From Haloferax sulfurifontis ATCC BAA-897 (lineage in GTDB: Archaea; Halobacteriota; Halobacteria; Halobacteriales; Haloferacaceae): 64,000 nucleotides of DNA. The notes under the pieces were generated by a model. That model did not search any database. It was not told the DNA's origin and saw only the letters and a program-made list of their open reading frames with translations. Below, in pieces: positions 35,241 through 42,119 of the stretch (position 1 is the stretch's first letter; the number at the start of each line of letters is the position of its first letter). The position numbers and the translations under genes are program-made. The stretch covers positions 1 to 64,000 of the forward strand of contig NZ_AOLM01000023.1 of NCBI RefSeq assembly GCF_000337835.1, given 5' to 3'.

Positions 35241-37613
35241 TCAGTTCTCGCCCGGGCCGTCGCCGGCAGGTTCGCGTTCACCCGAGTCAGCTCCGTCCCC
35301 GACAGACTCGTCTCCGCCCGAGCCGTCAGTGGCGAGGTCGGCCATCGTCGGCGACGACAGCGGTTCGGAACTCGCCCCGTCCGCTGTCGCGGGCCCGTCT
35401 TCGTCGCCGATGCCGTCACGAGCCGCTTTCTCACGCACCTCGAACCGGTCGGCGAGCGCCCGGAGTTCGTCGGTCGCCGACGACAGCTCTTGCATCTGCC
35501 CGGCGACGGTGACCATCGCGTCGTTCTGCTCGTGGGCCGCGCCGGCCACGTCGGCGGCCTCGCCTCGCGTCTCGTCGGCGATGTCGGCCGCCTCGTCCGC
35601 GAGGCGCGCGACCGACTGCGCGGCCGACGCCTGCGAGGTGGTCGCCTCGTCGACGGCGGCGACGCCGTGGTCGACCTCTTCGAGTCTGTCGACCGCCTCG
35701 TCGATTGCGGCGACGCCGGACTCGACCGTCTCGGACCCGTGGGAGACGCGCTCGCGCGCGGTCCTGACGGCGGCGACCGTCTCGTCGGCCGTCGCCTCGA
35801 CGGACTCGATAGACGACGCGATTTCGGTCGTCGCGTCCGCGGTCTCCTCGGCGAGCGCCTTCACCTCGTCGGCGACGACGGCGAAGCCGGCGCCGGCCTC
35901 GCCGGCGCGGGCGGCCTCGATGGAGGCGTTGAGCGCGAGGATGTTCGTCTGGTCGGCGATGTCCTCGATGAGGTCGACCACCTCGCCGATGTCCGCCACC
36001 TCGTCGCGGAGCGCTTCGACGCCCTCGGCCGCGACCGCGACGCGCTCGTCGATGTTCGCCATCTCGTCGTGGACGGCGGCGCTCGCGTCCCGGCCGGCCT
36101 CGCCGCGCTCCGACGCGTCGCCGGCGAGCGCCGCGAGTTCGTCGGCGGAGGCGGCGACCTCCTCGACCGTCGCCGAGAGGTCCTGCATCTCCGAGGAGAC
36201 CTCCGTGAGGAGCGACGCCTGCTCGGCCGCGCCCTCGGAGATGTCGGCCGTCGCCAGCTCGACCCGCTCGGAGGCGGCGCTGACCTCCTCGGTGCCGGCG
36301 GTGACGCGCTCGCCCGCCGCGTCGACGGTCGCCGCGAACGACGCGACCCGTCCGATAGTCGCTTCGAGGTCGGCGAGCATCGCGTCGATACCGTCGCCGA
36401 CGGCCGCCATCGCCTCGTCGGTCGGCTCGACCGACGTCCGAACCGTCAGGTCGCCCGTCGCCGCGGCGTCCATCGTCTCGCGGTAGTCGTCGGCGGCGCT
36501 CGCGAGGTCGCGGCGGGCGTCTTCGGCCGCTTCGATGCGCTCGCGCAACCCGTCGCGCATCTCGGCGAACGCCCGCGTCAGCGCCCCGAACTCGTCGACT
36601 CTCCGGGTTTCGAGGTCCACGTCGAGGTCGCCGCCGGCGAGCGCCGCCGCCTTGACGCGGAGCCGTCGGAGCGACAGCACCGTGTTGCGGCCGATGACGA
36701 CGCCGACCAGCGCGAGGCCGGCGAGGGCCACGCCGATGAGGACGGCGACGTCGCGCTCGACGACCTGCGCGACCGCGTAGGCGTTGGTCTGCGGCGCTTC
36801 CACGAGGACCGCCCAGTTCGCCCCCGAGACGGGCGCGTAAGCGACGACGTCGCCGCCGGCGTCCCCGTCGGTCTCGCGTTCGACGACGCCCGTTTCACCG
36901 CCGAGCGCGGCGTCGAGCGCGGGCGTCTCCGCTCCCTCGCGGTACGTCGTGAGGACGTTCTTTCCGTACTTGTCGAAGGCGATGACGCCCCCCTCGGTCA
37001 CCACGCGCGTCTGGGAGCCTTCGACCGGTTCGCTCAGCAGTTCGGCGTGCTTCGTCGCGTCGACGACCACCATCACCGCCCCGTCCCGCCCCTCGACCGG
37101 ACTGAGGAACGCGAGGCGCTCGCTCCCGCCGTAGCGGTAGACCTCTGAGACGGCCACGGCGTCGGGGTCGTCCATCGCCAACGACCCCGTCGTCCACGAC
37201 AGGCCGAGGTCGGACACCGATTTGGTCTCTATCACCCCGTTGGTGCTTCGGACGATGTCGCCGTCCGACGGCCGCAGGTAGTGAATCGCCATCACCTCGT
37301 CGGGGAGCGTCTCCTTTTCGCGTTCGAGCGCCTCGTCGATGCCGTCGGGGTCGCCCGTCTGGACCGCCTCGTACTCCGAGAGCATCCGGGACGTCCGGGC
37401 GTAGCCGTCCACCCAGTTCGATAGCCCCTCTGCCTCCAGCGTGGCGACCATCTCAAGGTCGCTGTGAGTGCCGGCTCTGACTTCGGTCCCGACCACGTCC
37501 GAGACGTACAGACCGAACCCGCCCATCACCGCGGCCACGAGGAGGATAACGAACAGAAACTTCCGAAGGTAGCTCCGCCTGAGCACCGCCGGAACCAGCG
37601 TGGCGAGCTTCAT
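35241..37613 (-). CDS. Membrane-bound chemotaxis transducer (Htr type)
   Basis: 790 residues from the ATG at 37613. A first membrane helix (about 14-37), an extracellular dCache-like sensory region (about 38-280) with [13 protein letters not shown] and [13 protein letters not shown], a second helix (about 290-313), a HAMP domain (about 315-370), a further helical linker, and the MCP signalling domain with the tip [17 protein letters not shown]. The C-terminal 60 residues are low-complexity and acidic. It would signal to CheA/CheW. The ligand is unknown. It is the first of two transducers within 7 kb. Confidence 0.9.
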
Positions 37614-37730
37614 GTCAGTCGGTAGCAAGCGAATGCGACGTAAAGCGTTGTCCCGCTGACTATCAGCAGTGATACTGTGAGACAAAAGGGCACCCGTCTC
37701 ACGCACCGAGTTACGAGCTCCGAGAACCGG

Positions 37731-39566: not shown

Positions 39567-42119
39567 ATGGACGACGACAGCCACCTCCGGAGCCGAGCGT
39601 CGTCGCTTCGCGCAACCGTCCGGGCCGCGCTCGGGTCGCGCACGACCGACGACTCCGAATCGGACGCTGTGAACGCGCCGGCGCGCGACGACGCGCGGAG
39701 CGACGGCGGGGGACCACCCACGGTCGCCGTCGGGTCTGGGGCCGGGGAGTCTCCTTCCACCGACGACGATGCCACCGCGCCGGCGGCCTCAGACGCCGCC
39801 GCGCTCGACGACCTCTCCGCGGCTATCGAACGCTGTATCGACGGCGACCTGACGGTCCGCGTCGACGTTCCCGACGACCCGGCGCTCGCGCGCCACGCCC
39901 GCGCCCTCAACGAGCTGTTCGAGGAGTGGCAGACCGCCATGCGGACCGTCGACGCCTTCGCCGACCAGGTCTCGGCGTCGACCCGAATCGTGGCCGACGC
40001 CGCCGAGGAGAGCCGCGAGGAAAGCCGGTCTGTCGCGGGCTCCGTCGACGACATCGCCGCGGGCGCGCGCCGGCAAAGCGAGAGCGTCGAGGAGGTCGCA
40101 GACGAGATGCGGAACCTCTCGGCGACCATCGAGGAGGTCGCCGCCTCCGCCGACGAAATCAGGCACGCGACCGACGAGGCCGTCGCGCGCGGCGACCGCG
40201 GCAAGCGCGCCGCCGAGACCGCCATCGACGAGTTGGCGGCCATCGGCGAGCGGACCGACGCGACCGTCGGGCGCGTCGAGGAACTCGACGACCGCATCGA
40301 CGACATCACCGGCATCGCGACCAAGATCTCCGACATCGCGGAGCAGACGAACATCCTCGCGCTCAACGCCTCCATCGAGGCCGCCCGCGCCGGCGAGGCC
40401 GGCGCCGGCTTCGCCGTCGTCGCCGACGAGGTGAAGGCGCTCGCCGAGGAGACGCAGGCGGCGACCGCCGACATCGAATCGACCATCGAGACGGTCCGCG
40501 CGCAGTCGGCCGCGACGGTCGACGACATCACCGACACGAGCGAGCGCCTCGACGAGGGGAGCGAGACGATTCAGGACGCGCTGTCGGCGCTCGACGGCGT
40601 CGTCTCCGACCTCGAAGAGACGAACGGGAGCCTCCACGAGATTTCCGACGCCACGGACTCGCAGGCGGCGACCTCCCAAGAGGTCGTGAGCCAGGCCGAC
40701 GGCGTCGGCGAGATAAGCGACGAGACCGCGGCGCTCGCGGTCGACGCCGCCGGGTCGGCCCGCCGACAGACCGTGTCGCTCTCCGAGGCGGTGACGAAGA
40801 TAGGCGCGCTTTCCGACCAAGCGGACCACCTGCAAGACTCCATCGACGGCTACCGCCTCCACGCCGAGGCGACCGAGTCGAGCCAGACCGTCGTCCAGTT
40901 CTGGCACGGCATGTCCGGCGACAAGGCCGAGGTCCTGGAGTCGCTCGTCGACGAGTTCAACGCCGACCACGACGGCGTCCGCGTCGACACCGCGTCGAAG
41001 GGAAGCTACCGCGGCACGTTCGACGCGACGCTCGCCGCGGCCCGGTCGGGGACGCCGCCGACCATCGCGCAACTGTACGAGGTCGGCACCCAGCGCGCCC
41101 TCGACAGCGGGGCGTTCATCCCCGTCGAGTCGGTGCTCCCCGACGGGGCGTCCGCGGGCGAACTCGTCCCCGAAATCGCCAACTACTACCGCCACGACGG
41201 CGCGCTCTGGTCGATGCCGTTCAACGCCTCGAACCCCGTGTTGTACTACAACGCCGACGCGTTCGAGCGGGCCGGCCTCGACCCCGACGACCCGCCGGCG
41301 ACGTTCGACGAGGTCACCTCGGCCGCGGCGACGCTGAAGACGAGCGGAAACGTCGACTACGGCGCGACGTGGGCGAACTACAGTTGGTTCGTCGAGCAGT
41401 GGTTCGCCGCCGCCGGCGAGTGCCTCTTCGACGCCGACAACGGCCGGAGCGGCACCGCCCGCACCTCGCACCTCGACGGCCCGGTCGGGACGCGCGTGTT
41501 CGAGTGGTGGCGCGACCTCGAACGCAACGACCTGCTTTTCGACCCCGGCGTCGAGGCCCGCCGAGACGCGCGCGAGGCGTTCCTCGACGGCCGTGCCGCG
41601 ATGCTCGTGGACTCCAGTTCGAGCGCCGCGTCGGTCGTTCGGGGAGCCGCAGAACGCGGCTTCACCGCCGAGGTCGGGCGGTTCCCCTCGCCCGGGTCGA
41701 CCCGCGAGGGCGTTGTCGTCGGCGGCGCGTCGCTGTGGGTCGCAGACGGCGTCGAATCCCGGAAACGGGCCGCCGCGGGCGAGTTCATCGCGTGGCTCAC
41801 CCGGCCCGAACAACAGCGTCGCTGGCACCGGCGGACGGGGTACTTCCCGGTCCACCGCCGGACGCGGGACCTCCTCCGCGACGACGGCTGGTTCGACGAG
41901 CACCCCGGCTTCGCGGTCGCGTTCGACCAACTGGCCGAGACCGTCGACACGCCGGCCACCCGCGGCGCTCGCGTCGGCCCCTTCACGACCGTCAGGACCA
42001 TTGTGTCGGAGGGGCTGTCCGAGCTGTTCGACGGCCGCGACCTCGACGCCGTGTTGGCGACGATGGACGAACAGGTGTCGGCCCGCCTGTCGGAGTACGA
42101 GAACTCGGCGAAGCGCTGA
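39567..42119 (+). CDS. Soluble chemotaxis transducer fused to a solute-binding protein domain
   Basis: 850 residues, no signal peptide and no membrane helix. Residues 1-70 are acidic and low-complexity. 70-430 form a cytoplasmic MCP signalling domain with the hairpin tip [19 protein letters not shown] and long flanking coiled coils. From about 441 to the end is a full extracellular solute-binding protein fold of the UgpB/sugar type: [31 protein letters not shown], then [21 protein letters not shown], then [13 protein letters not shown], and C-terminal [19 protein letters not shown]. Binding proteins of this type normally sit outside the cell and serve ABC importers for glycerol-3-phosphate or sugars. 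Here it would be intracellular. The start ATG follows a TATA-like ATATGTGATACTC. Confidence 0.9.

Follow-up and report, generated by a model that had tools for sequence, protein, structure and literature searches.

A soluble haloarchaeal chemoreceptor with a UgpB-type sensor domain and a predicted role in reading intracellular glycerol-3-phosphate

Closest described receptors and binding proteins

Halobacterium Car is a cytoplasmic chemoreceptor that senses arginine. The receptor described here resembles such cytoplasmic archaeal chemoreceptors in that a soluble MCP would respond to an internal signal. A census of archaeal chemoreceptors, in the part available, counts SBP_bac among the ligand domains of MCPs and places C-terminal ligand domains in some cytoplasmic receptors; in that part, SBP_bac is pooled with other families, and function, ligand, pocket and gene context are not given (PMC9680633). 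PacP is a chemoreceptor for phosphorylated C3 compounds, which is also the candidate role of the present fusion; however, PacP senses external glycerol-3-phosphate (G3P) through a periplasmic sCache_2 domain located between two membrane helices (PMC12395807), whereas neither an sCache match (Pfam) nor a membrane helix (hydropathy) was detected in the fusion. MtpA is alike in principle, being a cytosolic MCP that responds to an enzyme-made metabolite of the attractant, but it is a bacterial (Methylobacterium) receptor with another sensor, and its ligand is formaldehyde made from methanol, resulting in methylotaxis (PMC10613068). By analogy, we propose that the fusion works like a metabolism-linked taxis receptor.

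UgpB, which belongs to the Ugp ABC transporter, has the same fold as the binding domain of the fusion (TM 0.85–0.94 for E. coli 4aq4 and 6x84 and Phaeobacter 9lff) and aligns with it over its full length. The two pockets have in common the phosphate Tyr/Ser set, a Glu, a Gly, an Arg and one Trp. In contrast to UgpB, the domain is fused to an MCP, carries no export signal, has no permease genes in its vicinity, lacks one clamp Trp and scores below the equivalog cut-off; because export signal, permease linkage, clamp Trp and cut-off all fail, the fusion was not classified as UgpB. SBP_bac ligand domains in archaeal MCPs (PMC9680633) and the G3P chemoreceptor PacP (PMC12395807) are already known; meanwhile, a literature search covering mostly openly readable papers found no description of the ligand, pocket or glp linkage of the fusion. 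We hypothesize that it is a soluble haloarchaeal chemoreceptor that reads intracellular G3P, giving metabolism-dependent glycerol taxis, and sequence and modeling make this reading probable.

Domain architecture and cellular location

The window, a stretch of 64,000 nucleotides from Haloferax sulfurifontis ATCC BAA-897 (contig NZ_AOLM01000023.1), contains the complete gene for the MCP-UgpB fusion receptor at 39567..42119 on the + strand, as are all features of the protein given below. The gene starts with ATG and encodes 850 amino acids plus a stop codon, with no internal stops; upstream of the ATG, the frame has no other start codon and reaches a stop after 31 codons. Residues 1–74 (39567..39788) form an acidic, disordered N-terminus without signal peptide, Tat motif or lipobox. 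They are followed by a HAMP-like helix pair at residues 79–127 (39801..39947), for which AF2 predicted helices at 72–91 and from 105 onward; Pfam HAMP matched 10 of 33 orthologues and gave no match in the window copy. The MCP coiled-coil hairpin spans residues 128–431 (39948..40859), with MCPsignal at 215–377 (Pfam, E 1.6e-41) and the tip [19 protein letters not shown] at 256–274. Consensus-like methylation sites occur at residues 186, 291, 347 and 368, as sequence matches that do not imply modification. A linker joining the receptor helix and the binding domain occupies residues 427–438 (40845..40880; AF2 pLDDT <50 at 427–437).

The UgpB-type solute-binding domain extends over residues 435–850 (40869..42116) and was recognized by Pfam, NCBIfam, PDB search and AF2 fold match. 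Pfam placed SBP_bac_8 at 460–762 (E 7.7e-44) and SBP_bac_1 at 453–750; the NCBIfam UgpB model matched residues 435–825 (E 3e-74) with 250 bits, below the equivalog cut-off of 411 bits, and the PDB sequence search aligned E. coli UgpB 4aq4 with residues 441–849 (E 5e-66). The full-length AF2 model, which was used for domain limits and the linker rather than for domain packing owing to its modest confidence (pTM 0.53), showed disorder up to residue 74, a helical region at 105–431, the linker at 427–437 and then the binding domain. Pfam, NCBIfam and the PDB search therefore agree with the original prediction that a complete MCP signaling domain is joined to a complete UgpB-type binding protein at the C-terminus. 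A second MCP of 821 residues, apparently membrane-bound, is encoded 1.9 kb upstream on the opposite strand (35241–37706, – strand).

The window copy has no Tat or Sec signal, no lipobox and no membrane helix. Its highest 19-residue hydropathy mean was 0.88, located within the binding domain; N-terminus and hydropathy thus bear out the earlier claim that signal peptide and membrane helix are absent. The MCP hairpin must be cytoplasmic to contact CheA and CheW, and no membrane helix follows it; the binding domain is therefore predicted to be intracellular, and the topology of the hairpin supports the cytoplasmic location first suggested. Orthologues of the Halohasta/Halonotius type (L014, L016, L023 and L027) each contain one N-terminal hydrophobic stretch (mean >1.8) and no equally strong stretch beyond it, and their sequences suggest that they may be a version of the receptor anchored in the membrane with the rest inside.

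A pattern scan over 84,980 species genomes, which detects close relatives only, yielded 53 relatives. Single-frame fusions were found in Haloferax, Haloarcula, Halomicrobium, Halohasta, Halonotius, Halobiforma and Halorubrum, and both halves lie in one frame at 43 loci including that of the window; contig ends cut a few of these loci short. In an even sample, 27 of 145 haloarchaeal genomes contained the fusion; none was found outside the haloarchaeal order in a 197-genome sample of the phylum, and the scan for close relatives found none outside the haloarchaea. An exported protein, or a frame error joining two genes, is hardly credible as an explanation. The hydrophobic stretches of the four orthologues and a metagenome fragment (L055) with the two halves in different frames could be read in its favor, but the window copy lacks Tat and Sec motifs, and a hairpin outside the cell could not reach CheA. 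As far as sequence can show, signal-free N-terminus and topology rule out export of the window copy, and the frame error, which the original prediction had named as a result that would count against it, is ruled out by the recurrence of the fusion in a single frame at 43 loci.

MCP-type receptors can feed non-swimming outputs, and the fusion might signal through CheA and CheW to an output such as surface attachment or gene regulation. We regard this as very improbable, given the standard tip sequence and, in the same genome, 14 matches to the MCP domain together with three CheW-domain matches over the cut-off.

Fold, pocket and relatives of the binding domain

The AF2 model of residues 435–850 had a pLDDT of 94.7. 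In the PDB fold search, E. coli UgpB 6x84 was the best match (TM 0.94), followed by G1P-bound Phaeobacter UgpB (9lff) and then substrate-bound E. coli UgpB (4aq4); GPC or dinucleotide binders matched less well (0.78–0.83) than the best match. The search of the C-terminal part against structure and domain databases, proposed earlier as a check, thus returned a UgpB-type solute-binding fold.

In Phaeobacter UgpB, Tyr64, Ser143, Ser266 and Tyr342 contact the phosphate, Glu88, Gly303 and Arg393 contact the hydroxyls, and Trp188 and Trp191 form the clamp (PMC12718374). We placed these contacts on the fusion by aligned motifs, and Tyr64, Glu88, Ser143, Trp188 and Trp191 were checked against the 9lff chain, which is numbered 20 ahead. 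The candidate ligand residues of the window copy are Y481, E505, S555, W607, S683, G720, Y759 and R802. Seven of the nine UgpB contacts (Y64, E88, S143, W191, S266, G303 and Y342, in UgpB numbering) were invariant in 43/43 fusions; among them are all four phosphate-coordinating residues, Y481, S555, S683 and Y759 in the window copy, which also retains all three hydroxyl contacts, E505, G720 and R802. The position of Arg393 is Arg in 29/43 fusions, including the window copy, and Gln in the other 14; the Haloarcula group, which shows the closest glp linkage, has Gln. At the position of Trp188, the first clamp Trp, the fusions have Asn or Thr (N604 in the window copy, with W602 nearby), and the second clamp Trp is kept as W607. 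Asn also occupies the first clamp position in standalone haloarchaeal UgpBs. Loss of this Trp means that affinity or specificity may differ from that of UgpB. On sequence grounds, the pocket points to a glycerol-phosphate-like ligand with an altered clamp geometry.

The haloarchaeal standalone UgpB-like proteins adjoin the fused domains in the tree, where the fused domains lie on one side of a branch with support 83/84, a position compatible with a single origin. The standalone lipoproteins L048, L051, L057 and L063, the last from the same genome as the window, are tree neighbors and show ~43–49% identity to the fused domain. Unlike the fusion, they have Tat or lipobox motifs and UgpA, UgpE and UgpC alongside, and carry Leu or Val at the position of the pocket Arg of the window copy. 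The standalone proteins inspected carry Tat and/or lipobox motifs, and eight named standalone loci adjoin UgpA, UgpE and UgpC, whereas neither UgpA nor UgpE was found near the fusion at any fusion locus examined. In L048, L050, L051, L052 and L057, Leu or Val replaces the hydroxyl-binding Arg that is present in UgpB and most fusions, so the specificity of the transporter paralogue may have shifted. The standalone UgpB of the window's genome (L072) is surrounded by glycosidase-like and transposase-like ORFs, named by eye, with no UgpA or UgpE match around it.

Pairwise omega was 0.10–0.20 for the HAMP and MCP part, 0.08–0.30 for the binding domain and 0.43–0.86 for the N-terminus, across all pairs except one Halorubrum pair. 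These values indicate that both halves are under purifying selection, with the binding domain similar to the MCP part, and that residues 1–74 are weakly constrained. Binding-protein folds are reused in other roles, and GlpK lies in the gene neighborhood; the domain might therefore bind no small ligand and act as a structural or protein–protein module, for example by docking the receptor to a glycerol enzyme. However, the pocket is invariant in all 43 fusions even though the domain is often only ~50% identical, and the low omega of the binding domain likewise argues against such a module, which we consider improbable.

Glycerol gene linkage, candidate ligand and proposed mechanism

In Haloarcula, Halomicrobium, Halohasta, Halonotius and one genome of the genus Haloferax, the fusion lies within a glycerol catabolic cluster (glpA-glpB-glpC / fusion / glpK), whose neighboring products were identified as GlpK, GlpA, GlpB and GlpC by NCBIfam above cut-off. 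glpK was also present at 16 named fusion loci, and a 17th has glpABC and is cut before glpK. Three arrangements were observed. In the Haloarculaceae, glpC-glpB-glpA in reverse orientation is followed by the fusion, glpK and a membrane protein gene in forward orientation, so that glpA and glpK diverge on either side of the fusion; in Halohasta, Halonotius and two more sampled genomes, it is downstream of glpK and the membrane protein gene; and a single genome of the window's genus has it 2.3 kb from glpK in divergent orientation. glpK occurred in 27/27 fusion genomes compared with 118/145 overall (Fisher p 0.002), and fusion and glpK were within 5 kb of each other in 14/27 genomes; in 11 of these, the two genes share a strand and are separated by ~130 bp. 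The linkage and co-occurrence p-values are naive in that they take no account of shared ancestry; stronger evidence for the glp link comes from the three arrangements. Most fusions of Haloferax and Halorubrum lack the link to glp. So does the window copy: its genome carries the glp cluster on a different contig, and the fusion is not part of that cluster. Permease linkage on one side and glp linkage on the other suggest that the paralogues have split, one serving uptake outside the cell and one associated with glycerol catabolism inside.

Two further genes were seen in these regions. The ~360-residue membrane protein adjoining glpK (L056:13969-15051 and equivalents; L073:6238-7242 in the window's genome) had no NCBIfam match and is a candidate for glycerol uptake. 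The other gene, recognized by eye as encoding an AAA-type, Orc1/Cdc6-like ATPase, is conserved in or beside the glpK-fusion cluster, for example at L023:8278-9444, and also occurs at L014-L016, L018-L022, L025-L027, L029, L030, L056 and L074-L076.

The original prediction had left the ligand as glycerol-3-phosphate or a sugar. UgpB is the best match in sequence and structure, the phosphate residues are invariant, and glpABC and glpK are linked to the fusion in relatives; together these favor glycerol phosphate. The sugar is less likely, as the phosphate Tyr/Ser set, which UgpB shares with GPC-binding and U3G-binding proteins, is reportedly missing in relatives that bind glucose (PMC12718374); both glp synteny and the phosphate site disfavor it. 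That the same cytoplasmic receptor has another phosphorylated metabolite as its main ligand (G1P, DHAP, a glycerophosphodiester or a dinucleotide) seems unlikely. In its favor, the phosphate set is not specific to UgpB, the first clamp Trp is missing, and the fusion is not linked to glp in the majority of Haloferax and Halorubrum. Against this, the three arrangements in which the fusion accompanies glpABC and glpK point to G3P, E. coli UgpB fits better than the GPC and dinucleotide binders, and the residues that hold the glycerol moiety (E505, G720 and W607) are retained. Archaea make G1P for their lipids. Because UgpB binds G1P and G3P alike (PMC12718374), the sensor may read both.

For a receptor of intracellular G3P, we propose the following mechanism. 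The sensor domain would descend from UgpB, the exported binding protein for glycerol phosphate, and would now be cytoplasmic. Glycerol would enter the cell and be phosphorylated by glycerol kinase to sn-glycerol-3-phosphate; in Haloferax volcanii, this enzyme makes G3P from intracellular glycerol and is needed for growth on glycerol (PMC12366361). The binding domain would close on sn-glycerol-3-phosphate, and its movement would pass through the short linker to the distal end (base) of the MCP hairpin, which is also the location of the N-terminal HAMP-like helices. CheA activity, and with it archaellum switching, would then change, such that the cell would steer by intracellular glycerol phosphate, that is, by the glycerol actually consumed. 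Glycerol entry and the GlpK step are established for the genus, and the later steps are those that the model would predict; we infer the ligand in vivo, the conformational coupling and the sign of the response. The chances are about even for the wider proposal that a haloarchaeal chemoreceptor acquired, in a single event, the exported binding protein of a transporter, which was moved to the cytoplasm and now senses the initial intermediate of glycerol breakdown; cells would then navigate by internal glycerol flux and not by external glycerol.

Algae, Dunaliella among them, are regarded as the source of much of the glycerol in brines. Haloferax volcanii uses glycerol in preference to glucose (PMC12366361), and the papers found do not describe how haloarchaea find glycerol; a receptor reading intracellular glycerol phosphate, if confirmed, would explain this. 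Here, the binding protein of an ABC transporter has apparently been repurposed as an intracellular metabolite sensor. The genus is genetically tractable, allowing separate deletions of the receptor, the kinase and the dehydrogenase. If the proposal is true, it would separate two long-discussed modes of taxis, sensing of the attractant and sensing of its metabolism, and would provide a direct molecular basis for metabolism-dependent taxis.
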